A stretch of DNA of 64,000 nt from Caldicellulosiruptor acetigenus (GTDB lineage Bacteria; Bacillota; Thermoanaerobacteria; Caldicellulosiruptorales; Caldicellulosiruptoraceae), in NCBI RefSeq assembly GCF_026914305.1, contig NZ_CP113866.1:2111501-2175500 (forward strand), read 5' to 3'. The translations under genes and the position numbers were made by a program. Below the pieces are notes generated by a model that did no database searches, was not told the DNA's origin, and was given only the letters and a program-made list of their open reading frames with translations. Position 1 is the stretch's first letter, and each line of letters starts with the position of its first letter. Shown here one piece after another: positions 8,161 through 21,506 of this stretch.

Positions 8161-8203
8161 ACAAAAAAGGCACCTACATTTATTTTACCACATTGGTGCC
8201 TTC
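8161..8203 (-). terminator. Terminator ending the chemosensory operon
   Basis: Minus-strand hairpin AAGGCACC...GGTGCCTT (8168-8202) followed by TTTTTTG, 13 bases beyond the stop of the EAL gene. Confidence 0.85.
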
Positions 8204-8215
8204 TAAAAATGGCTT

Positions 8216-10054
8216 TTAATTTTGAGATTTATACTTTTCAATAAACTTTATCATCTCCTCAACAGCCAAAGGCTTACTTATAAAATACCCTTGAACATAG
8301 TCACATCCAAGTTCTTTTACAGCTCTGTAGTGTTCCTCTGTTTCCACCCCTTCTGCCACAACATTTAATCCCAATTTTTTACATAGTTTTATTATTGTTT
8401 CTACTATAAAATACGTTTCGTCTTTTTCTATATCTTGAATAAAAGATTTATCAATCTTCACAGCCTGGATTGGTAATCTTCTCAAATAATTCAGCGAAGA
8501 ATAATCGACACCAAAATCATCTAAGGCAAAGATTATGTTGTACTTTCTTAGCTGATTTATCACTTCAATTGTATAGTCAATATTCTCAACTGCCAATTTT
8601 TCTGTTATCTCAAATTGAAGTTTAACATTCTCTAATTCCTCATTTTCTAATATTTGAATTGTAGAACGAATAAACTCTCTATCGCTAAATTGTCGTGGTG
8701 AAATATTGATTGAAATTATAAACTCATCATTAATATATCTGCTTAACAACTTAGCTACCTTTAGGGACTGTTCCAATACAATATTGCCTAACTCCACAAT
8801 CAACCCACACTTCTCAGCAACCGGAATGAATTCCAATGGCGATACAAACACCGACTTTAAATAATGCCATCTCAAAAGAGCCTCAAATCCACAGATCTGA
8901 TTATTCTTTAAGTTTATAATTGGTTGATAAAACACCACAAACTCATTTAAATCTAATCCATGACGAAGTTCTCTTTCAATTATCCCTTCCTTTAATGTTT
9001 GAACCTCCAAAGAAGGTTTAAATATCTCATATTCATTTAGACCTTTCTCTTTTGCTCTTATTAAAGCTAAATCACATTTCCTTATAACGTTCGCCGTGGA
9101 GTCATTAATATTTTCCATTGCAGTTGCTCCTATATTGTAACTTACTTTCATCAAGTTTCCATTAATATTGTATGTTACCAATAGTTTTTGTAACAAATTT
9201 TCAATAAACTCAGATATGTTATCTGTATTACATATTATTGCAAATCTATCAAATCCTATCTTAAATATTTTAGTTTCTTTACCAAGTATCTCTTCTATCC
9301 TCTTACTTATGTGGATAATCAGTTCATCAACTAAGTCATATCCATACATAACATTTAACTTTTCTAAATTTCTCACTTCCAAAAAGATCAAATAGGTACT
9401 CATATTATCTGCTTGACTAATTCTTAAATTTAACCATCTCATAAGTGAATTCTTGTTTGGCAATTTGGTAAGCTCATCATAAAACGCCAAAAACTCAACT
9501 CTGGTTTTATAATCTTTTATCATTTCATCTTTTTGTTTCAAAATAAAATCCTGTTTAGAAATTTTGAACTTTAGATTCTCGCTTTCTGCACTCATTTTAT
9601 TGAGATCTCTTTCATATCGTTGGATTTTTCTATTTAATCTTTCTACTGCATCTAAGCTAAAACCTATTGAAAGAAAAATTTTTTTATTGTCCTGCACACT
9701 TTCTATCTTAGAGTTGTACCATAAGAATGTCTTTTTTACTCCATTTATATCTCTCACAGGATTAACGTAATATCTGAGTATTTCATCATTTACTAATTTT
9801 TTGTAAACCCATTCCATTTCCTCTTTCTCTTTTTCATCAATGAGAACATCCAACCACTTTTTCCCTTCTATTTGTTCAGGTGAATATCCCAATAATTTAT
9901 CACCATTTTCTTTGAATTCTAATATTGTTCCATCATCAGCCCATATAACTACCACATAATCATTTATGTTTCCAAAATAGCCTTTTAGATTCTCTACAAA
10001 AAATTCCACTTTACTATTTTTTATTTCTTCATATCTCTCCTTTCCCAAGCTCAT
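8216..10054 (-). CDS. PAS-GGDEF(degenerate)-EAL cyclic-di-GMP phosphodiesterase
   Basis: 612 residues, no signal peptide or membrane segment. Domains in order: PAS (about 30-135), coiled coil (140-190), GGDEF fold (193-345), EAL (365-605). The GGDEF signature reads GFDRF near residue 268, so diguanylate cyclase activity is not expected. The EAL domain keeps EALLRW (about 392), NISPRQF, EITE, DDFG (about 512), KIDKSFI, EGVETEE and QGYFISKPL, the set needed for metal binding and catalysis. It should therefore hydrolyse cyclic di-GMP, possibly tuned by the PAS and degenerate GGDEF domains. It is the last gene of the chemosensory operon, 22 bases after a receiver gene, which suggests it is an output of that pathway. 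Confidence 0.92.
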   Translation of the reverse strand: MSLGKERYEEIKNSKVEFFVENLKGYFGNINDYVVVIWADDGTILEFKENGDKLLGYSPEQIEGKKWLDVLIDEKEKEEMEWVYKKLVNDEILRYYVNPVRDINGVKKTFLWYNSKIESVQDNKKIFLSIGFSLDAVERLNRKIQRYERDLNKMSAESENLKFKISKQDFILKQKDEMIKDYKTRVEFLAFYDELTKLPNKNSLMRWLNLRISQADNMSTYLIFLEVRNLEKLNVMYGYDLVDELIIHISKRIEEILGKETKIFKIGFDRFAIICNTDNISEFIENLLQKLLVTYNINGNLMKVSYNIGATAMENINDSTANVIRKCDLALIRAKEKGLNEYEIFKPSLEVQTLKEGIIERELRHGLDLNEFVVFYQPIINLKNNQICGFEALLRWHYLKSVFVSPLEFIPVAEKCGLIVELGNIVLEQSLKVAKLLSRYINDEFIISINISPRQFSDREFIRSTIQILENEELENVKLQFEITEKLAVENIDYTIEVINQLRKYNIIFALDDFGVDYSSLNYLRRLPIQAVKIDKSFIQDIEKDETYFIVETIIKLCKKLGLNVVAEGVETEEHYRAVKELGCDYVQGYFISKPLAVEEMIKFIEKYKSQN

Positions 10055-10545: not shown

Positions 10546-11541
10546 TTATTCATCTCCATCTTTGCAATGTTTTTTCAGAATCTGGACACCTTCATTGTAA
10601 ATATTATCTAACACCCCGACAATTTCTTGAATACCTGCAAAGTGTTGTTTTACCTGGTCAGAGAGCTGATTTTGATAATTTAGCACAGAACTAATAAGCT
10701 TGTGAACAGAGTCAAATTCATCGGTTATCTCGTAAGTCCTATTTTTTAGCTCTTCCACCTTACCTACAAAAGTGTTAATTCGGATACTGTTTGTATTAAT
10801 ATCTTCAACAATATTTGAAATGGCCTTGTTAACCTCTTTCAAACTCTGTTTACCACTATCTGCAAGTTTTCTCATCTCGGATGCTAATAAACTGAATGCC
10901 ATAGAATCTTTTGCTTTATTAGCTTCAATTTGAGCATTTAATGAAATAAAAGAGATTTCCTTTACAATATCGCTAATAATCTGGGTCACTTTGCTCATAT
11001 TCTCAACATGCGCTGAAAGATTAACAACATCTTCCGATAACTCTTGCATTTGGTTCAATAGAACATTTATATCCTCCACTGATTTAGAAACCTGCTCCCA
11101 GCCTTTTCTTATATCATCTTCAACTTTGTTCGACCTTTGAGTCATATCTTCCAAATTCTTCACTACGACCTCATTTATCTCATCAACTACTATCTTGAAC
11201 GCTTCTGTAAGCTCCTTGACTGACTCAAATATGGTTCGTAACTGCTCTGCCAATTCACTTTTTTGACTATCCAACGCTCTTCTGCTTTTCTCCGTTTCTT
11301 CCTTTAAGTATTGGTTTTCAGACTTAAGCTTAAATATCTCATCTCTAAACTGTTTTTCTATCAAGTCAAGTTTACTTTTATATGCATCAACAAATTTTTT
11401 GGGTATCCCAGCTCTCAATTCCCCCGAACTCACAAATTCAATGATCTTCTTTATTTCATTAGACTTTTTCATAAGTAATAATTTTTCAGCAATTATTACC
11501 ATTAGCATTATCACAAAAACCATATATATATACCATTCCAT
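10546..11541 (-). CDS. Small membrane-anchored MCP-like signalling protein
   Basis: 331 residues. One N-terminal membrane helix (residues 3-23) is followed at once by a charged linker and a long coiled coil, with no external sensing domain. The region around ISFISLNAQIEANKAKDS and FSLLASEMRKLADSG matches the hairpin tip of methyl-accepting proteins (canonical [15 protein letters not shown] and [13 protein letters not shown]), but is clearly diverged, including loss of the usual ARAGE. It starts at the base after the stop of the Hpt-CheW gene, so the two are tightly coupled. It may be a specialised receptor or scaffold for this kinase rather than a typical ligand sensor. Confidence 0.85.
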   Translation of the reverse strand: MEWYIYMVFVIMLMVIIAEKLLLMKKSNEIKKIIEFVSSGELRAGIPKKFVDAYKSKLDLIEKQFRDEIFKLKSENQYLKEETEKSRRALDSQKSELAEQLRTIFESVKELTEAFKIVVDEINEVVVKNLEDMTQRSNKVEDDIRKGWEQVSKSVEDINVLLNQMQELSEDVVNLSAHVENMSKVTQIISDIVKEISFISLNAQIEANKAKDSMAFSLLASEMRKLADSGKQSLKEVNKAISNIVEDINTNSIRINTFVGKVEELKNRTYEITDEFDSVHKLISSVLNYQNQLSDQVKQHFAGIQEIVGVLDNIYNEGVQILKKHCKDGDE

Positions 11542-12543
11542 TCAAATCAACTCCATACCATTTTTTGACCTCTCTATCAATTTTCTAATATCTATTACCT
11601 GAATAAATTCACCGTTTCTTTCCACTATTCCTTTCAAAACCTCACCTGACGAAATTGAAACTACATTTGCTTCTTTTTTTATCTCCTCAGGAAGCACGCT
11701 TACAACTTCTCTTACATTATCAACATACAGCCCAAATGTCAACTCCTCATTGCCGATTATTAGAACTTTGTGATTATTACTTTCGCTTTTTTCAACTCCC
11801 AGCAGTTTCCCAAAATCAACTATTGTGACAACATCCCCCCGCAGGTTCATAAGTCCCATCACATGTGCAGGTGCAAAAGGTATTGGAGTTACATCTGTTG
11901 GTCTTACTATCTCCCTGACAAACTCTACCTCAATTCCGTAAGTAACATCTCCATATTCAAATGAAACAACCATTTGGTAAGAATATTCATCAATGTTTTG
12001 GTCATCTTCATTTATTCTGAAGTTTGTAAATTCATCATTTTTATCATCTTCTCGATTTCCTGCAAATTCAGGTTCGTTCAATGTTTGAAAATCATCATTG
12101 TTTTTCACTCTTTGCTCAATAGCTGCATCTGATGACTGGTTTGAACTGTCTATTCTCTTCAATTGCTCTATATATGAGGAATAATTAATGCTGCTTTGCT
12201 TATTGTTCTCTATATCGTCTGCCAACTTTCGAATGATATCTATTCCCTCGAAAATAGCATTTATAACATCACTGGAAGGGTATATCTCATAGTTTCTCAT
12301 CTTATCTAATAAGCTTTCCATTTCATGAGAAACGTTGATGATATCCTGCAGACCTAAGAAGTTTGCTCCTCCTTTTATTGAATGAATTTCCCGGAATATA
12401 AAATTTAGTGTCTCGTAGCTGTCTGGGTATTTTTCAAGTTGTAAAAGAGCATCTTGAGCATTCTCAAGATGCTCGTATGTTTCAACAATAAACTCTTTTT
12501 TGAGCTCTTCAAGTTCTGCTGCACTGAACAGTTGGTCAGTCAT
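11542..12543 (-). CDS. Hpt-CheW fusion: phosphotransfer half of a split CheA
   Basis: 333 residues. Residues 10-115 are an Hpt domain with the phospho-acceptor His54 in the motif IHSIKGGANFLGL. A low-complexity acidic linker (120-188) follows, then a CheW/P5-like domain (189-325) with MGLMNLRGDVVTIVDF. There is no dimerisation or ATPase domain, so it cannot phosphorylate itself. The operon's CheA lacks an Hpt domain, so the simplest reading is that this protein is docked through its CheW domain and phosphorylated in trans. The closest known parallel is the CheA3/CheA4 pair of Rhodobacter sphaeroides. It lies 17 bases after the cheY-like gene. Confidence 0.92.
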   Translation of the reverse strand: MTDQLFSAAELEELKKEFIVETYEHLENAQDALLQLEKYPDSYETLNFIFREIHSIKGGANFLGLQDIINVSHEMESLLDKMRNYEIYPSSDVINAIFEGIDIIRKLADDIENNKQSSINYSSYIEQLKRIDSSNQSSDAAIEQRVKNNDDFQTLNEPEFAGNREDDKNDEFTNFRINEDDQNIDEYSYQMVVSFEYGDVTYGIEVEFVREIVRPTDVTPIPFAPAHVMGLMNLRGDVVTIVDFGKLLGVEKSESNNHKVLIIGNEELTFGLYVDNVREVVSVLPEEIKKEANVVSISSGEVLKGIVERNGEFIQVIDIRKLIERSKNGMELI

Positions 12544-12559
12544 TACAATCCCACCTTTG

Positions 12560-12931
12560 TTAACTTCTCATTTCAATACTCAAGAACTTCTGAACATGTG
12601 AAATCAATTCCTCACTTGTCACAGGCTTTTTCAAGTAGAGATTTGCGCCTGCTTCCAATGCTTTTTGCTCTTCTGATGGATTTGTTGTTAGCATAATAAC
12701 AGGGATTCTCTTACATGTTGGATTCTTCCTTATTTCTCTAGTGAGCTGCAGACCGTCCATCTTGGGCATATTGAGGTCTGTAATAACAAGGTCAATCTTC
12801 TCATTCAAGAGTATTTCCAATGCAGCAACACCGTCCAATGCATCTCTTACCTCAAACCCTTTTTTCACAAGTGTTGTTGTCACAATTTTCTTCACAACAG
12901 GCGAATCATCAACAACTAAAATCTTAGGCAT
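12560..12931 (-). CDS. cheY: CheY-like response regulator
   Basis: Single receiver domain of about 123 residues. Landmarks: ILVVDDSPVV (acidic pair), DLVITDLNMPKMDG (phospho-acceptor Asp), VIMLTTNPS (Thr) and LYLKKPVTSEEL (Lys-Pro). The chosen start is the ATG at 12929-12931, because a GGAGGT ribosome site (12942-12947) lies 10 bases before it. An upstream in-frame ATG at 12949 overlaps that site and would add six residues. It sits between cheR and the Hpt-CheW gene. It could carry the signal to a motor or act as a phosphate sink; the sequence does not decide. Confidence 0.93.
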   Translation of the reverse strand: MPKILVVDDSPVVKKIVTTTLVKKGFEVRDALDGVAALEILLNEKIDLVITDLNMPKMDGLQLTREIRKNPTCKRIPVIMLTTNPSEEQKALEAGANLYLKKPVTSEELISHVQKFLSIEMRS

Positions 12932-12956
12932 AATTTTTTCTACCTCCATTAATTTT

Positions 12957-13802
12957 TTAGTTTACAGGCTTTCTAAACGCTATATTGTTGTCAAAATAAA
13001 CAATCTCAAATGCTTTTGTAATTCTCAAAATACTTTCTGAGTGTCCCAAGAAGATATAACCTCCAGGATTCAGTGCATCGTAAAAGTACTCCACAACCTT
13101 TTTTCTTGACTCTTCATCAAAGTAAATCAGAACATTTCTGCAAAATATCACATCATAATTTCTCATCAGCTTCATCTTGCTCTCATCGTATAAATTTAAG
13201 TATCTAAACGTTACCAGCTTTTTTATCTCATCTTTGAGCTTGTATATCTTATCTGCAGGACTGTATTCAAAATATTTAAGTTTTATATACTCCGGCACGT
13301 CTTTTAAAGACCGCGGCATGTACACAGCATCTTGCGCAAGCTTTAGCACTCTTTCTGAGATATCAGTACCAAGTATCTCAATGTCCCAGTCATCAAAGTA
13401 TTCAAGCCTTTCTTTTAAAATTATGGCAATAGTATATGGCTCTTCTCCAGTCGAACATCCTGCACTCCAAATTTTTAGTCCAAAATCGCCTTTACTTGCT
13501 TTCCTGTTCAAAAGTTCAGGTAAAACATCTTTTGAAAACATATCAAGTTGCGGGATGTCTCTGAAAAAGTAGGTCTCATTTGTCGTGACCAATTCCAACA
13601 ACTTGTTGAGAGCACTTTTCTCCGTCTCAATTCTTTTCAAATATTCCCAAAAATCATCTATTCCTAAATTATCCATCGCAATTTTTAATCTCTTTTGAAT
13701 GTAACCTTTTTTATCATCTGAAAAGTAAAGACCTGTTGATTTATATATGAAGTCCCTTATAACATACCACTCTTGACTATTCAAGATAACCTCTGTAAGC
13801 AT
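12957..13802 (-). CDS. cheR: CheR chemoreceptor methyltransferase
   Basis: 281 residues. An N-terminal all-helical domain (1-80) precedes the SAM-dependent methyltransferase domain. Visible family motifs are LVTTNETYFFRD, LKIWSAGCSTGEEPYT (SAM binding) and YDVIFCRNVLIYFD. CheR adds methyl groups to glutamates of receptors and is opposed by CheB, also encoded in this operon, so the system should adapt. The likely substrate is the 650-residue double-tipped receptor, which has many Glu/Gln-rich helices. The gene lies 17 bases after the HEAT-repeat gene. Confidence 0.95.
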   Translation of the reverse strand: MLTEVILNSQEWYVIRDFIYKSTGLYFSDDKKGYIQKRLKIAMDNLGIDDFWEYLKRIETEKSALNKLLELVTTNETYFFRDIPQLDMFSKDVLPELLNRKASKGDFGLKIWSAGCSTGEEPYTIAIILKERLEYFDDWDIEILGTDISERVLKLAQDAVYMPRSLKDVPEYIKLKYFEYSPADKIYKLKDEIKKLVTFRYLNLYDESKMKLMRNYDVIFCRNVLIYFDEESRKKVVEYFYDALNPGGYIFLGHSESILRITKAFEIVYFDNNIAFRKPVN

Positions 13803-13818
13803 TTTGATCCTCCTTAGC

Positions 13819-15297
13819 CTAGCTCACAAGCAAGTCCTGGGCTTCAATGGAAATTTCCATGTTGGGATGGTCAACCAAATATTCCAGCTGTGCTCTAAAT
13901 GGTTCTTTGTTATCAATCTTTCGTATCAGCTGTAAAAGTTTAAGAACGTGAACATCAGATAAAAACTCATTTGCAAGTTCGTCTTTAATGAGCGCCACAA
14001 CCCTCGGGTCGTCTGGTCTTAGTTCAAGCATACACTCAAGCATCAAAAGTTTTGTGTCATCGCTTTTAATATTGAAATACTCCTCATAAATTTTATCAAA
14101 CAGTTCTTTGAGTTCAAGTTCAACAGCAGTTTTTAACACTTCGGGCAAGAGATCTTCTTCTTTCATCATGTCAGGTAACATATCTGCTGCCTCCCTAACT
14201 CCATTCTGCCTCATAATCTTCAAGCCGGTGATTTTTAGTATATTGTCATTACCTTTAAAGACCTCTCTAATGTACTCAGCTAATTTTGACTTGTTGAAAT
14301 ATTTGAACACTTTAATCAGCTCTCTTTTCCTCAAAGTATTTGCTGTGTAATAGAGTTTTATGGCACTCAAAATAATCGTCTCATCAAATACCCTGCTTTT
14401 TATAAAGCTTACAAAGTCCTTATCTTCTATACTACCCATATATTTAAAAATTTCGTACTTCTGCTCATCTGAACCATGTATCAAAATGGCCTTTATCTCA
14501 TCAAAAAACTTGCTATTTGCAAGAATTTTTTCAAGTCTTTGCTTGTCTGACCTCAGATAAATCGAATATATGGTATCTAAAACCTTTATTCTTAGCTGTG
14601 TCGAAAGCTTTAGATAAAGATTTATCGCGTCCTCCACATTTTCAATGTCACCATTTTCCTTTACCATATCAAAAATACTGTCAAAGATGATATCCTCAAT
14701 CTCCCACGGCAGGTTCAAAACCTCTGAAATTAGCTCTCTATTGTTCACCTTTTTTATGCTCTCGATTATTGTCCACTGCACCCACAGATGAGCAGATGGT
14801 AAAAACTCTATTACCTTCTTGAGAGCTTCAACATCTCCAATGTTACCAAGTGCCTCAACAGCTCCCTGGACCACATTCACATCATCATCTGATAACCTTT
14901 TTAGCAAAGCATCAACTGTTTGTTTGTTCTTTAAAGCACCCATGATATCAACTATAAATTTTCTCACATTTTTATCTGGATTTTCTGCCTCTGCTATAAT
15001 GGCTTGTATATTATCATTTCCTATCTTGCACAAAACTTCAAACGCAAAAACCCTCACTCTTGCTTCTTCATGACTTAAAAGCTTTAATAACTTCTCAACA
15101 GAATAGCTTCCGCCCATTTGCTTTAGTGCCTCTGTGATGTGTTCTTCAATCATCTTGTTGTTTGTTTTTATGAAGAGATCTATCAATCCATCAACAACTT
15201 CAGGTTCTTTGAACTTTGGTGCATTTTCTATAGCTTCTTTTTGCAAAAGATAATCGTCTGAATTTAGCATTTCAATTATTTCTTTAACTGAATTCAT
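13819..15297 (-). CDS. HEAT-repeat protein in the chemosensory operon
   Basis: About 492 residues of helical repeats. Typical HEAT units include AVEALGNIGDVEALKKVIEFL, a hydrophobic/Asp pattern repeated every 30-40 residues, and EARVRVFAFEVLCKIG. No catalytic motif, signal peptide or membrane segment is seen. The reading frame stays open into cheA, but the good start is the ATG at 15295-15297 with AAGGAG upstream, which removes a 39-residue false extension. HEAT proteins act as scaffolds. Similar genes accompany some non-flagellar chemosensory clusters, so it may organise the split kinase or its receivers. That role is an inference. Confidence 0.85.
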   Translation of the reverse strand: MNSVKEIIEMLNSDDYLLQKEAIENAPKFKEPEVVDGLIDLFIKTNNKMIEEHITEALKQMGGSYSVEKLLKLLSHEEARVRVFAFEVLCKIGNDNIQAIIAEAENPDKNVRKFIVDIMGALKNKQTVDALLKRLSDDDVNVVQGAVEALGNIGDVEALKKVIEFLPSAHLWVQWTIIESIKKVNNRELISEVLNLPWEIEDIIFDSIFDMVKENGDIENVEDAINLYLKLSTQLRIKVLDTIYSIYLRSDKQRLEKILANSKFFDEIKAILIHGSDEQKYEIFKYMGSIEDKDFVSFIKSRVFDETIILSAIKLYYTANTLRKRELIKVFKYFNKSKLAEYIREVFKGNDNILKITGLKIMRQNGVREAADMLPDMMKEEDLLPEVLKTAVELELKELFDKIYEEYFNIKSDDTKLLMLECMLELRPDDPRVVALIKDELANEFLSDVHVLKLLQLIRKIDNKEPFRAQLEYLVDHPNMEISIEAQDLLVS

Positions 15298-15328
15298 CCT
15301 TCGTGCTCCACTCCTTTTTTGATTTAAA

Positions 15329-16978
15329 TTAGACTTTTTGAATAACTCTTTCAATAAGCTGCTCTGGTTCAAGCAGAAGTACAACTTTACCATCACCCAA
15401 AATTGTTGAGCCAACTATACCTTTTACATTCCCCACAAACTGGTCCAAAGGCTTCACTACAACATCATATTCACCCATGAGCCTGTCCACTATTATTCCT
15501 ACCTTGCTTTCTCCATACCTTACTATAATTCCAAAATAATAATTTCTTCCGTTTTCGTCCTCTTGATATCCAAGTATTTCCTGAAGATTGAAAAAAGGTA
15601 TTATTTCCCCCTTGATGCTGCACACCTTCTTACCTGTGATAGACTTTATTGAATCTTTCCTTATCTTTACTGTTTCAACCACCTTTTCAAGTGGAAGCAA
15701 ATACAATCTATTCCCAGCTAAAACCAGCAAAGTCTTTATTATTGCAACAGTGAGAGGAATTACCATCAAAAAGCTTGTCCCTTTATCTTTCTCTGTTATA
15801 ACTTTTATTTCTCCTTTTAACTCACTTATGTTCTTTTTCACAACGTCCATGCCAACGCCTCTGCCCGCCACATCATCAACTTTTTCGGCGGTGGAAAAAC
15901 CCGGTAAGAAAATAAGCTCGATTATTTCATCATTTGACATTCTTTCAAGCTGGTCCTGTGTCACTATGCCTTTTTGCAGAGCCTTTTCTTTTAATTTCTC
16001 TATATCAATACCTCTGCCATCATCTTCAACATTTATATAAATACTCTCACCTTCTGCATATGCTTCTACCACAATCCTTCCCAGAGGTCTTTTACCCTTA
16101 GCAATTCTTTCCTCTGGCTTTTCGATTCCATGATTTACACAATTTCTCACCAAGTGTACCAGTGGATCGGTTATCTTTTCAAGTATAATCTTATCTATCT
16201 CTGTCTCCTCACCTTTTATGATAAGTTCAACCTCTTTTCCCTCTTTTTGTGCAACCTCCCGAACAATTCGCGGAAGTTTTCTAAACACATTTTTAATTGG
16301 CAGCAGTCTCAAACTTGTTATGCCTTCCTGAAGTTCAAATGAGATTCTTTCAAGTCTCAAAATTCCCTTTTCAAGGTTTGAAATTAAGCTGCTAAGCGTT
16401 TTATCTTTTATACTTATTTCTTTGAACGCATTCAATATCTGATTTAATTGAGATTTACAGGTAATAAGTTCCCCCGCAAGATTTGTAAGGTTATTTAATT
16501 TGTTTATATCAATTCTCACCGACTCAACTTTTTTAGCATCGTGTTCACTTTCTTTTGATACAAAATTCTTAATCACTTCCTCAGAAGTTTCAAGCTGAAC
16601 ATTATCAGACTGGTTTGCGATTACGCTTGCTTCTTCTGTTTCTGTAACTTCTAAATCCTCTTTTAATAGTTTTTGGATAAAGAAAATTTCAACTACATCT
16701 TCACTTTTACAAACATCTTCTACAACTTGACGCAATGTATTTATTTCAATGTCACCTTCTATAAAAAACAGATATTCACTTACATCCTCACTTATATGTT
16801 CCTGCTCTACATCTGGAATTGTCAAAAACACATTATATTTTTCTTTTAGAGTTTTATATATCTTTGCCATAGATGGAGATTTAAACTCAGCATCTGGTTT
16901 TAGTAAAAACTCTATTTTGTATATCTTTTTCCCTTCATCTAAAAGCTCCATGAGAAATTTCTTTTCATCATAATTCAT
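15329..16978 (-). CDS. cheA: CheA-type histidine kinase lacking the P1 (Hpt) domain
   Basis: 549 residues. Residues 1-105 resemble the P2-like regulator-binding domain (KIEFLLKPDAEFKSPSMAKI), followed by a linker, a P3 dimerisation domain (about 155-250), a P4 HATPase domain (about 255-415) and a P5/CheW domain (415-545). P4 keeps the N box (HLVRNCVNHGIEKPEER), G1 (DDGRGID) and G2 (GRGVGMDVVKKNI), so ATP binding looks intact. There is no phospho-acceptor His domain. Only 29 bases separate its start from the end of cheB, so a missed P1 exon-like extension is excluded. It probably phosphorylates His54 of the Hpt-CheW protein in trans. Confidence 0.93.
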   Translation of the reverse strand: MNYDEKKFLMELLDEGKKIYKIEFLLKPDAEFKSPSMAKIYKTLKEKYNVFLTIPDVEQEHISEDVSEYLFFIEGDIEINTLRQVVEDVCKSEDVVEIFFIQKLLKEDLEVTETEEASVIANQSDNVQLETSEEVIKNFVSKESEHDAKKVESVRIDINKLNNLTNLAGELITCKSQLNQILNAFKEISIKDKTLSSLISNLEKGILRLERISFELQEGITSLRLLPIKNVFRKLPRIVREVAQKEGKEVELIIKGEETEIDKIILEKITDPLVHLVRNCVNHGIEKPEERIAKGKRPLGRIVVEAYAEGESIYINVEDDGRGIDIEKLKEKALQKGIVTQDQLERMSNDEIIELIFLPGFSTAEKVDDVAGRGVGMDVVKKNISELKGEIKVITEKDKGTSFLMVIPLTVAIIKTLLVLAGNRLYLLPLEKVVETVKIRKDSIKSITGKKVCSIKGEIIPFFNLQEILGYQEDENGRNYYFGIIVRYGESKVGIIVDRLMGEYDVVVKPLDQFVGNVKGIVGSTILGDGKVVLLLEPEQLIERVIQKV

Positions 16979-17007: not shown

Positions 17008-18039
17008 TTATAAAAATATAGAATTTATAGCCCCCGCAATACTTGTGCAAGGCAAAATCAAATCAGCGATACCCTGGTCAATTACAGCTTTCGGCATTCC
17101 AAATATAATAGCAGTGGTCTGATCCTCAGCAATTATAAATCCTCCTAACTTTTTGATAAAAGCAAAGGCTTTTGCTCCATCATTCCCCATTCCAGTTAAC
17201 ATTATTGCAAGAAGTCTATCTTTGTAATGCTGGGCAAGTGAAAATCCAACATAATCAACAGAAGGTTTGTATATCAAATCATCTGGCCCATCAACTATAT
17301 TTATTACAGTCCTACCACCAGAGATTGTTATCTCCATCTGCTTGCCGCCTGGTGCAATATACACTGTGTTTGGTTTTACAGTCTCACCCTTTTCAGCTTC
17401 TTTTATAAAGAGTGAACTTCTTTCTGAAAGTGTTGAAGCAAGCTGCCGTGTGAAATTCGGTGGCATATGCTGAACAATAAATATTGGTACGCCTATGTCA
17501 CTTTTTATGTATGGAATAATCTCACCCAGTGTCTTTGGACCACCTGTTGAAACACCTATAAATATTGCATTGGGCCTTGCCAATGGTCTTTTGGACAGTG
17601 ACACAGCTTTCTGCTTGATTGAAGAATCAGCTTTTTTAACAAACACATTAGCCTTTGCTGCATTTAAAACTTTTTGAATAATCTCATTTTCTATACACTC
17701 AAGCTCGCTTGAATAATTAGATGGCTTTGGAATAAAATCTACAGCACCAAGGCTTAAAGCTTTTAATGTAACCTCAGCTCCCTTTTGGGTAAGCGTTGAT
17801 ATCATCACAACAGGGGTTGGACATGTCTGCATTATTGTCTTTAAGGCTTCAAGTCCATTTAAAATTGGCATCTCAACGTCCATTGTTACAACATCCGGGC
17901 GAAGGGAGGCAACCTTTTCGATTGCCTCCTGCCCATTTGTAGCATAATCTACAACTTTTATAAAAGGACTTTTTTGAAGTATCTTTATTAAAACCCTTCT
18001 CATTAAAGGGGAATCTTCTACTACTAAAACTCTCACCAT
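17008..18039 (-). CDS. cheB: CheB receptor methylesterase / glutamine deamidase
   Basis: 343 residues. A receiver domain (1-120) has VLVVEDSPLM, the phospho-acceptor Asp in DVVTMDVEMPILNG, and PKPS near its end. A linker and a C-terminal methylesterase domain (about 155-343) follow. The catalytic triad region shows the Ser in GVSTGGPKTL, the His in VQHMPPNFT and the Asp in TGMGNDGAKAF. It removes receptor methyl groups after phosphorylation by the kinase and so gives adaptation feedback. It lies between cheW and cheA, 30-37 bases from each. Confidence 0.96.
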   Translation of the reverse strand: MVRVLVVEDSPLMRRVLIKILQKSPFIKVVDYATNGQEAIEKVASLRPDVVTMDVEMPILNGLEALKTIMQTCPTPVVMISTLTQKGAEVTLKALSLGAVDFIPKPSNYSSELECIENEIIQKVLNAAKANVFVKKADSSIKQKAVSLSKRPLARPNAIFIGVSTGGPKTLGEIIPYIKSDIGVPIFIVQHMPPNFTRQLASTLSERSSLFIKEAEKGETVKPNTVYIAPGGKQMEITISGGRTVINIVDGPDDLIYKPSVDYVGFSLAQHYKDRLLAIMLTGMGNDGAKAFAFIKKLGGFIIAEDQTTAIIFGMPKAVIDQGIADLILPCTSIAGAINSIFL

Positions 18040-18075: not shown

Positions 18076-18636
18076 CTATTGTGTATTTGTATTCAAAAGT
18101 TCCTCCTTAAGTTCCTCAATCTGAATTACTTCATTAGATGTTAGTATTTTGGACATATCAAGAAGGATTATTATTCTTCCATTAATTTGACCAACACCTT
18201 GTAAGTACTCTGTATTAATCCCTCTTATAACAGGAGGAGGTGGAGTTATTGCATCGTTTGGAAGTCTTAAAACTTCTGTAACTTCATCAACAATTCCACC
18301 TATTGTTACATTGTCAAGATTGATGACAAGAATCCTCGTCTGCCTTGTTCTTTCTGCCTCAGGAAGTCCAAATTTTTTGCGCATATCAATTATAGGCAAT
18401 ATTTCTCCCCGCAGACTTATTATTCCTTCAACAAAAGAGGGTACTTGGGGTATTTTAGTAATGGTGGTTGTTCTGATAATCTCTTTGACCTGCATTATAT
18501 CAACACCATATTCTTCATTCCCAAGCTTGAAAATCACAAGCTGCTTTTCATCACTGAGCTCATCTTCCTCTTCAAAATCTTCAGCTATATCTGATTTTAA
18601 TAGTTTTTTTCTTTCTTCATCAATCATATCACTCAA
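18076..18636 (-). CDS. cheW: CheW adaptor protein
   Basis: 186 residues, with an acidic N-terminal extension of about 28 residues before the CheW fold. The domain shows KQLVIFKLGNEEYGVDIMQV, EGIISLRGEILPIIDMRKKFG and GIVDEVTEVLRLP, which define the receptor- and kinase-binding surfaces. It couples the soluble receptor to CheA. It starts 25 bases after the end of the receptor gene. The acidic head is longer than in most CheW proteins, and the C-terminus (EELKEELLNTNTQ) is also extended. Confidence 0.95.
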   Translation of the reverse strand: MSDMIDEERKKLLKSDIAEDFEEEDELSDEKQLVIFKLGNEEYGVDIMQVKEIIRTTTITKIPQVPSFVEGIISLRGEILPIIDMRKKFGLPEAERTRQTRILVINLDNVTIGGIVDEVTEVLRLPNDAITPPPPVIRGINTEYLQGVGQINGRIIILLDMSKILTSNEVIQIEELKEELLNTNTQ

Positions 18637-18661: not shown

Positions 18662-20614
18662 TTAAATATTTTTAAGCTCTTCTGCAAGATTAGCAAGCTC
18701 TTGAGCTGCCTGAGCAATCTGAGATATTGCTTTAAGCTGCTCTTGTGCCTGGGTTGCTGCACTTTGAGCTGCTTGTGATGCTTCTTCTGCTCCCCTTGCT
18801 ATCTGCATGGTTCCTGCTGCAATCTGGGTCAGAGCTGCTTCTGCATCCTGTGCCATCTTAAGGAGCTGCCCACCTTCTGTCACAACTTTTTCTGTTGCAA
18901 GTTTTACCCTTTCAAGCGAAATGGTTATCTTTTGCGCCTTTTCATTTTCCTGTGTTGAAGTTTTAACAGCATTTTCAACATCTTCATATACAACTCTCAC
19001 TTGGTCGCTGATATTTCTCACCATTTCTTTTATATTCCCTATTGCTTCACTTGACTGCTGAGCAAGCTGCTTTATATCCCCTGCAACAACCGCAAATCCT
19101 TTCCCGTACTTGCCAGAACGTGCTGCTTCAATTGATCCATTGAGCGATAGCAAGTCCACTTTTGTTGTAACATTTGAGATTGTATCAATTATCTTCTCGA
19201 TGTTTCTAATCCTTTTTTCAAGTACTCTCACGCTTTCCAATGACTGTCTGTTCTTCTCAACCGACTGTGCAACACCTTCAATCAATCCCTCTACATCTTT
19301 TCTATTCTTTTCTAAAATCTCCTGCAATTCTTTTGCCAATTTTGTAGCGTTTTCTAATCTATCAACTATATCTTTCTGCATTTCTTTAAGATTCTCTGTT
19401 GCTTTCTGGGACTCTTCACATGCAGCTGCCTGTTCTTCGCTCGCCTGCATTATCTGCTCAAGTGCTGAAGAAATCTGATAGCTTGCCTTGTGCGACTCTT
19501 CCACCATTGCTGCAAGTTCAGCCGATGCTGCCGCAAGCTCTTCTGCATTCTTTTGAGTAATGCTTGTAGATTTTAGCTCATCTGCCATCTCAGCAAGCAT
19601 TGTTATTGCATTGTTAATCTCGTTCAAAGCCTTTGTCTGCTCAATCAATGATGCATTTGACTCTTCTGTTGCTGCCGCAGTTTCTTCTGCTGCCGCTGCA
19701 ATTTGCTGGCTTCCACCTCTGACTTCGCTTGATGCATTCATCATATTTCTTGACAAAACTCTTATCTCCTTCATAGCTTCAACAATTGTATTGATTGCAT
19801 TTTCTATCTTCTTTAAATCCTCTGCAACACCTTTCGCTTTTTCAGCCTCTCCTCTAACAAGTTCTCCAACACCTCTTATATCCTCTGCCACAACATTTAC
19901 ATCTTTTTGAATATCCTCTATGATGTTTTGAATCTCGATAGCGGCTTTATTTGTTGTCTCCGCCAAACTTCTTACCTCATCTGCCACAACTGCAAAACCA
20001 CGACCATGCTTGCCAGCTCTTGCAGCCTCGATTGCCGCGTTGAGTGCAAGCAAATTTGTCTGGTCAGCAACCTCCATCACTGCCTGAGCGGTAGTTCTAA
20101 TTTCATTTGCCTGTCTTTCAAGTTGCAAAACATTTTCAGCAGATTCAAGAGAAGTCTGAGCTGCAGACTCAATTCCTCGAATCATATCTTCAATCTCGTC
20201 TGCAATATTTTGAATAAGTGCTTGAAGGTTTGCAATAGAATTCGAAAGCTCGCCTGTCCTTTCATCTGCAACCTTTGCAACCTTTTCAATCTCCTGAATA
20301 GCTTTCAAAGACTCATTGGCAGCCTTAGACGCTTCCTGAGCTGATGCTGCAATCTCCTGCACTGCAACCTGAAGCTCGTTGACATTTCGTGTTGCTTGTG
20401 CTACAGCCGCCTGAGTCTCAGTTGATGCTGCAGCCAGCCTCTCGATTATTGTGTTTTTCTTTAGCTCATCTCTCTTTTCCTTTTTCTTTGTTGAGTCAAA
20501 AACACCGGTGCTGAAAGATTGGCCTTGAGAAATGTCTTGAACTTGGTTAAAGGCAGCTGGCTGGATATTAGCTTTTAAAGGATTTCTTGGTGTCTGCAAT
20601 TTAGAAAGTTCCAT
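18662..20614 (-). CDS. Soluble methyl-accepting protein with two hairpin tips
   Basis: 650 residues, almost entirely coiled coil and rich in Ala, Glu and Gln, without a membrane segment or recognised sensing domain. Two separate copies of the highly conserved signalling tip are present: one near residues 185-215 ([21 protein letters not shown]) and one near 488-520 ([20 protein letters not shown]). Each is flanked by receptor-like helices, so the protein looks like an internal duplication of the MCP signalling domain. It is the first gene of the chemosensory operon, with a GGGAGGT ribosome site. It should sense a cytoplasmic cue or an unknown partner and control the split kinase. Confidence 0.93.
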
Positions 20615-20650
20615 TCTATTACCTCCCTTTTATTTTTGATTATATGTAAC

Positions 20651-20673
20651 TTTTTTTTTTTTTTTTTTTTTTT
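20651..20673 (-). repeat. 23-nt homopolymer in the chemosensory operon leader
   Basis: An uninterrupted run of 23 T on the plus strand (A in the operon's mRNA) lies 36 bases before the receptor start codon and between the predicted promoter and the ribosome site. Tracts of this length are prone to slippage in replication and in transcription. Confidence 0.95.
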
Positions 20674-20725
20674 AATAAATGTTATTTGTGTTATACAAAG
20701 TAATTCAATTAATTGCCACAATTAT

Positions 20726-20760
20726 ATTGGTATTATATTTATTGATACCAATTAATCCAA
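20726..20760 (-). promoter_or_regulatory. Promoter with overlapping palindrome, chemosensory operon
   Basis: On the minus strand a -35 TTGGAT (20755-20760) and -10 TATAAT (20732-20737) are 17 bases apart. A perfect 8-bp inverted repeat, ATTGGTAT/ATACCAAT (20745-20752 and 20726-20733), overlaps the -10 and spacer and could be an operator. The predicted start would give a leader of about 110 bases that includes the A-tract. Confidence 0.5.
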
Positions 20761-20870
20761 CTAAGACAGAAATATTTAAAAATAAATTGCGATTTAATTA
20801 TCAGATTGTCTTTCTAACAAAAATACCATTAAAATAAGTAGGTGTAAATGGAACCTACAAAATTTTTGGA

Positions 20871-21506
20871 TTAAAAATCAATCAACACCACCCTCGCAGG
20901 TGCACCATCGCAGTCTTTTAGTTTTAATGGCAATGCTACATATCTGTATTTTCCTCCACATACATTTGAAAGGTCTAAACCCTCAATAATTACAACATTA
21001 TTAGAAAGAAGTAGCTTGTGCACAGCAAAATCGTTTGAGCTAAATTCTTCTATCGAAAGATAATCTATCCCCACAACCTTAACTTTCCTTTCTATGAGAA
21101 ACTGGGCAGCATCTAAACTCAAATATACATACTTTTCACAAAACTCTGAGGTGCTGCTAAGATACTGAGAATTCTTGGTCTTGAAAAATATTCTATCTTC
21201 TAAATCAATATTTTTGCTTTCAAGAAACTCTCTGGTTATCTTATCATCTTCATACACTTCGAAAACCTTAACCTCTCCTATCAAGTACTCTAAAGGAAGC
21301 TTGTCAATGGTCTTTCCATCCTTTATAAAATGAGCTGGTGCATCAATGTGTGTCCCTGTGTGGGATGAAAGTATGAGCTTGCTGACGTTCGCTGCTTCTC
21401 CTTTTTCAATGCTATAAACCCTTGATATTTGCGGTTTTGGGTCACCAGGAAAATACACCATACTATCTGAAATTGGAATGCTAACATCGATAATCCTCAT
21501 CTTCAT
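20871..21506 (-). CDS. Cyclase-family metal hydrolase (kynurenine formamidase-like)
   Basis: 211 residues. The metal-binding signature HTGTHIDAPAHF, preceded by DVSIPISDSMVYFPGDP, places it in the cyclase / KynB family of Mn- or Zn-dependent hydrolases. Later segments (VVGIDYLSIEE, VVIIEGLDLSNV) match the family core. No other kynurenine-pathway genes are nearby, so the substrate is open; small amides or esters are plausible. It lies after the terminator of proS and before the chemosensory promoter, on the same strand as both, and probably forms its own transcript. The start ATG at 21506 has GGAGGTC upstream, a good ribosome site. Confidence 0.88.
   Translation of the reverse strand: MKMRIIDVSIPISDSMVYFPGDPKPQISRVYSIEKGEAANVSKLILSSHTGTHIDAPAHFIKDGKTIDKLPLEYLIGEVKVFEVYEDDKITREFLESKNIDLEDRIFFKTKNSQYLSSTSEFCEKYVYLSLDAAQFLIERKVKVVGIDYLSIEEFSSNDFAVHKLLLSNNVVIIEGLDLSNVCGGKYRYVALPLKLKDCDGAPARVVLIDF

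Follow-up and report, generated by a model that had tools for sequence, protein, structure and literature searches.

A close described counterpart of the chemosensory locus analyzed here is the CheA3/CheA4 pair of Rhodobacter sphaeroides, in which CheA4 phosphorylates CheA3 in trans and neither protein autophosphorylates alone, whereas the mixture does (PMC3591291). CheA3 is described as a decayed full CheA ending in P5 (PMC10782961). Its 794-residue middle contains vestiges of Hpt, P2, P3 and P4 and acts as a CheY6-P phosphatase (PMC10782961, PMC2829493), an activity that underlies the proposed bistability of the system (PMC3591291). A survey quoted in PMC3591291 counts 11 split CheAs against 470 complete ones, and PMC10782961 recognizes Hpt-less CheAs whose operon encodes the Hpt as a protein of its own.

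Split-kinase proteins are also on record for the genus studied here. In the portion of PMC2829493 that we could consult, Hamer et al. 2010 list, for Caldicellulosiruptor saccharolyticus, a CheA consisting of P3-P5 together with a P1+P5 protein whose linker is short, and, for Anaerocellum thermophilum (now C. bescii), a P1+P5 protein of the latter kind. These are evidently orthologues of the two proteins described below, and the carrier of C. bescii DSM 6725 is 90% identical to that of C. acetigenus. The pair is thus not a new discovery, having been reported for the genus in 2010. In that account the two proteins come from a domain search and stand in separate entries, the second domain of the carrier is termed P5, and P2 is undetected; the operon, its conservation and a mechanism are absent from the account of the pair in the same portion of the paper. 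The present analysis contributes four further points: the carrier is of CheW identity, the kinase has a P2 domain, its N-box is changed, and the operon is all-or-none with one natural partial loss.

The locus resembles the R. sphaeroides system in placing Hpt and a CheW-fold domain on one protein and the ATPase on another, with both encoded in one operon, and in having soluble receptors. An earlier note, made from the sequence alone, had drawn this parallel; it holds for the proposed function and fails for the anatomy. Unlike CheA3, the 333-residue carrier (hereinafter Hpt-CheW) has a tether of about 55 residues, lacks a decayed-domain or phosphatase region and ends in a CheW-type domain, and unlike CheA4, which is devoid of P2, the kinase retains P2. 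Because no region comparable to the CheA3 phosphatase is present, the bistability argument is not transferable. The locus likewise resembles the bipartite CheAs of PMC10782961 in having a kinase without Hpt and an Hpt from a neighboring gene, but here the Hpt is fused to CheW, a fusion that the available text of that paper does not describe.

Organization of the operon

The window, a 64,000-nucleotide stretch of the 2.74-Mb C. acetigenus chromosome, contains an 11-gene operon that spans 12.4 kb on the minus strand (20614 to 8216; Table 1). Intergenic gaps of 0–36 bases along all 11 genes, on a single strand, bear out the proposal that the two kinase halves belong to one operon, and the hpt-cheW stop codon immediately precedes the ATG of the short receptor-like gene. 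The reading frames of both kinase halves lie at the positions given in the earlier note. The start of the HEAT-repeat gene was reset to 15294 (491 rather than 531 residues) because the longer frame overlaps cheA.

Table 1 Genes of the split-kinase operon, listed from first to last (window coordinates)
Gene product	Coordinates	Strand	Basis
Soluble chemoreceptor, 650 aa, two MCP signaling tips (residues ~188 and ~488), without transmembrane helix	18662..20614	-	Pfam MCPsignal x2; hydropathy and tip motifs
CheW, ordinary single-domain adaptor	18076..18636	-	Pfam CheW E 6e-41; CheW side of domain tree
CheB, receiver and methylesterase	17008..18039	-	Pfam
P1-less CheA kinase, 549 aa: P2 (predicted, about 17-103), P3, P4, P5; N-box Asn282	15329..16978	-	Pfam; AlphaFold2 and Foldseek for P2; N-box comparison; orthologues
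HEAT-repeat protein, 491 aa	13819..15294	-	Pfam HEAT_2 E 2e-26; same six genomes as P1-less CheA
CheR methyltransferase (name from sequence and position)	12957..13802	-	ORF; synteny in six genomes
CheY-type single receiver, likely phosphoacceptor	12560..12949	-	Pfam Response_reg E 4e-30; interspecies conservation
Hpt-CheW protein, 333 aa: P1-type Hpt of five helices (about 8-133, His54), variable linker (about 134-187), CheW-type domain (192-325)	11542..12543	-	Pfam; PDB sequence matches; AlphaFold2 helices 8-133; CheW-versus-P5 typing
Short receptor-like protein, 331 aa, with a divergent MCP tip and a single TM helix at the N-terminus	10546..11541	-	Pfam MCPsignal E 3e-16; hydropathy
Second receiver with C-terminal extension, 147 aa	10077..10520	-	Pfam Response_reg E 1e-28
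PAS-GGDEF-EAL protein; GGDEF degenerate (GFDRF), EAL motifs present	8216..10054	-	Pfam; motifs

The CheY-type receiver is 92–95% identical across species and ranks among the most conserved of the operon genes compared. The PAS-GGDEF-EAL protein is a possible candidate for the pathway output. Receptors with double signaling domains are known, for example Vibrio cholerae DosM, and the two-tip soluble receptor (18662–20614) resembles them; it could support a two-layer cytoplasmic array. In each of the six complete operons, the HEAT-repeat gene (13819–15294) separates cheA from cheR. In Halobacterium, flagellar switching requires a HEAT_PBS protein that interacts with Che proteins (PMC2666748). 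Upstream of the first operon gene, within 20614–20874, lies a run of more than 20 A residues, a possible candidate for a phase-variable or spacing element.

Domain composition of the kinase

In the 549-residue CheA, Pfam identifies H-kinase_dim at 152–222, HATPase_c at 271–410 and CheW/P5 at 416–544, with P2 at 19–70 below threshold; the Pfam search of the protein did not find an Hpt domain. The stop-to-stop frame comprises 550 codons and opens one codon before the ATG, with the end of cheB 29 bases upstream, so no upstream extension is possible, and the earlier conclusion that no N-terminus was missed is upheld.

An AlphaFold2 model of CheA residues 1–125, built from 17 sequences, folds as beta-alpha-beta-beta-alpha-beta with a pLDDT of 85.9. 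Its top PDB match is chain 1U0S_A, the P2 domain of Thermotoga maritima CheA (Foldseek E 5.9e-6; TM 0.74, taken over the target). No PDB entry besides 1U0S, a complex of T. maritima CheA P2 with CheY, matches below 1e-3. The first ~110 residues are thus predicted to be a P2 domain. This model rules out the hidden Hpt that the earlier note had weighed for this segment, and the P2-like, P3, P4, P5 composition without Hpt claimed there agrees with our assignment.

The N, G1, F and G2 boxes of P4 are kept save for one position. Asn282, in the N-box "HLVRNCVNHGIE", is present in all six orthologues, at a position occupied by Asp in 58 of the 58 other CheAs compared; the Asp-to-Asn change is a single event in one lineage. 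Asn282 might reduce kinase activity; a literature search on N-box residues returned nothing relevant. The kinase core is at most 37% identical to those of the complete CheAs of the same genome and forms a long branch of uncertain place in the tree. Both halves are maintained by purifying selection, with dN/dS values against three species of 0.09–0.15 for the P1-less CheA and 0.14–0.17 for Hpt-CheW.

Type and origin of the carrier

Pfam places Hpt at residues 13–87 (E 4e-12) and CheW at 192–325 (E 2.7e-30) of Hpt-CheW and finds no ATPase domain in it. His54 is invariant in seven orthologues and one distant analogue. The Hpt domain is of the CheA type, with T. maritima CheA P1 among its best PDB sequence matches and ahead of all other natural proteins there; the tether is poorly conserved, and the AlphaFold2 model of the whole protein is reliable for the Hpt part alone.

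Whether the second domain is CheW or P5 had been left open by the earlier note, whose description of a 333-residue protein with an intact Hpt motif around His54 and no ATPase otherwise stands. With HMMs built from 53 CheW and 39 P5 domains, the operon's own proteins being excluded from training, the second domain scores 105–117 bits as CheW versus 17–26 bits as P5; the P5 domain of the operon CheA shows the reverse (123–131 bits as P5 versus 27–33 bits as CheW). Two trees, built from 131 and 35 domains, separate the P5 from the CheW group at 99–100% support and place Hpt-CheW on the CheW side. Joining its domain with the P5 of the partner CheA is rejected by the AU test (p 0.0007), and joining it with the operon's own CheW is not (p 0.17). 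Nor is a tree rejected in which Hpt-CheW branches from the stem that joins the groups (p 0.31); this test of a P5-side placement admits the stem position and hence has little discriminating power. By sequence, then, the second domain is classified as CheW-type and not P5.

This typing, together with the rejection of the P5 join, indicates that the carrier is an adaptor that gained a phosphotransfer domain and not the two ends of a CheA minus its middle. For the CheW-fold half, the same AU result (p 0.0007) rules out an origin in which an ancestral CheA gene merely split in two. Grouping the carrier Hpt with the P1s of the CheAs nearest by P5 is disfavored (p 0.0125); the kinase core, with its long branch, has no certain place to compare. 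Recognition of the carrier half as a CheW rather than the remains of a CheA is apparently new.

Distribution and partial loss of the operon

Among 12 Caldicellulosiruptor species the operon is complete in six, absent from five and partly deleted in one. The joint conservation of the two halves, which the earlier note had asked about, is seen in the six, where hpt-cheW and the P1-less cheA occur together in identical gene order; Hpt-CheW is present in seven species, and the P1-less CheA and the HEAT gene in six of those seven. Across the six complete operons, the first ten genes, of which the second receiver is the last, match over all or nearly all of their length, and dN/dS stays below 0.25 in comparisons with the window. 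In the five operon-free species, the flanking cyclase and phosphoribosyltransferase genes adjoin each other at a distance of 100–144 bases, and no remnant of the operon lies between them.

The partly deleted operon, in genome G003 (L080:6879-9780), carries an IS110 element (Pfam E 6e-29) between the disrupted receptor gene and the last part of cheY, marking a deletion that extends from the receptor gene to mid-cheY. The deletion removed cheW, cheB, cheA, the HEAT gene and cheR and left hpt-cheW and the downstream genes intact. The orphan hpt-cheW frame is still open, and its product is 94% identical to the G010 orthologue; in this species Hpt-CheW may have another partner, or the loss of cheA may be recent.

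At the other end of the operon, the GGDEF-EAL gene is frameshifted in G001 (L075:13345-15149) and truncated in G004 (L076:4008-4271) with the remaining operon intact, so this output gene seems dispensable. A terminator-like hairpin (AAGGCACC...GGTGCCTTTTTT) lies 3' of the operon at 8163–8202; the same hairpin follows the cyclase gene in G002 and G006, both without the operon. Homology to these two genomes begins directly past the EAL stop codon, which marks one boundary of the cassette.

Outside the genus, no Hpt-CheW protein was found in the rest of the class (37 genomes searched), and sampling 398 genomes of the phylum yielded one further example, a 299-residue protein from another family (G150). 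It shares the two-domain architecture and is CheW-type (99.9 bits versus 16.4 as P5); unlike the C. acetigenus protein, it adjoins a complete, Hpt-bearing CheA of 1009 residues, whose P1 is the closest relative of its Hpt (64% identity). A separate origin of the G150 protein is favored. A search of viral contigs found no relatives, and one scan of genome contigs returned weak matches alone, confined to the CheW region of the query. An apparent second Hpt-CheW on an Agrobacterium vitis plasmid is actually a triple-CheW protein beside a complete CheA, and the best Deferribacter plasmid match is itself a complete CheA.

Proposed phosphotransfer and its alternatives

At the threshold used, the genome encodes exactly four Hpt domains: the only one of this cluster, on Hpt-CheW, and three in complete CheAs. 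The earlier note had regarded a complete CheA elsewhere that serves this cluster as a challenge to its reading; three do exist, each within a che cluster of its own. One lies in the flagellar cluster with cheW and genes resembling cheC and cheD, another with cheY, cheW and a membrane receptor, and the third with a triple-CheW protein, CheX and CheC-like proteins. Judged from gene neighborhoods, each would have the partners of its own cluster, but cross-talk with the split pair may occur. In the third cluster, the 480-residue protein of three CheW domains (L108:3897-5339) has as neighbors a CheA whose P1 is divergent, a pair of CheX/CheC-type genes and a soluble receptor; a second receptor of the kind found in the operon, soluble and with two MCPsignal stretches, is encoded in this cluster at L108:1984-3882.

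The operon probably encodes a complete chemosensory pathway with a split kinase, in which Hpt-CheW is phosphorylated in trans by the P1-less CheA. The kinase would dimerize through P3, bind ATP through P4, dock onto receptors and CheW through P5 and capture response regulators through P2; because it contains no substrate histidine, it would not autophosphorylate. The histidine would be supplied by Hpt-CheW, a CheW-type adaptor to which a CheA-type P1 is flexibly tethered. This protein should join the same receptor array through its CheW fold and, being CheW-type, occupy CheW places there. P4 would then phosphorylate His54 in trans, and the phosphoryl group would pass to the CheY-type receiver, to CheB and probably to the second receiver, with an output possibly exerted on c-di-GMP through the EAL protein. 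As the kinase keeps P2, receivers could dock on the kinase while the donor histidine sits on another protein.

Trans-phosphorylation on a shared array, as the earlier note had proposed, is the best explanation because the cluster's only Hpt lies on Hpt-CheW and the two halves share an operon and evolve under purifying selection. Co-occurrence in six of 12 species, the invariant His54, the CheA-type Hpt, the near-intact P4 boxes and P2 are consistent with it, and the analogies with R. sphaeroides CheA4/CheA3 (PMC3591291) and, in the available text of PMC10782961, with Hpt-less CheAs that have a separate operon Hpt make phosphotransfer between the halves the likeliest course. Asn282 in place of the N-box Asp, the G003 Hpt-CheW without its CheA and the three complete CheAs in the cell may be counted against it.

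These same three observations would suit a different role for Hpt-CheW, as a phosphate sink or cross-link that is phosphorylated by a complete CheA and feeds or drains the operon receivers, the P1-less CheA being a weak or structural kinase. The G150 protein, next to a complete CheA, indicates that such a protein can be accessory. We nevertheless consider this role unlikely, since each of the other CheAs belongs to a different cluster that encodes its own CheW or CheW-domain protein, and the P1-less CheA retains every other ATP-site motif and evolves under purifying selection. CheA phosphorylates across its dimer. With an intact P3 and complete CheAs present, the P1-less CheA might therefore heterodimerize with one of them and phosphorylate its partner's P1, leaving Hpt-CheW secondary; the low identity of the kinase cores and the long branch make this very improbable, and the operon's own Hpt would have no role. 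Equally hard to credit is a decaying system, in which CheA lost P1 by deletion and the operon is disappearing: absence from five species, partial deletion in one and a damaged EAL gene in two would fit, but six species retain ten genes at or near full length under constraint, and both His54 and the ATP site are conserved.

Within the trans-phosphorylation reading, a further proposal is tentative. If the carrier domain sits in CheW positions of the array, the count of substrate histidines might depend on how much Hpt-CheW there is relative to ordinary CheW, the operon encoding both, and not on the number of kinases; phosphorylation might then take place between neighboring ring subunits rather than across the CheA dimer, and Asn282 might adapt the active site to this.

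Discussion

A literature search, incomplete in its coverage, found no paper on an Hpt-CheW protein under that name. The locus presents a chemotaxis kinase that would be divided such that the substrate resides on an adaptor, and catalysis and receiver docking on the kinase, a division for which we found no study. It opens two questions: what position P1 must take in the array, and whether kinase output can be set through the stoichiometry of the adaptors. As the proteins come from a thermophile, their purification may be easy, and the presence, absence and partial loss of the operon in close species offer ready natural comparisons.
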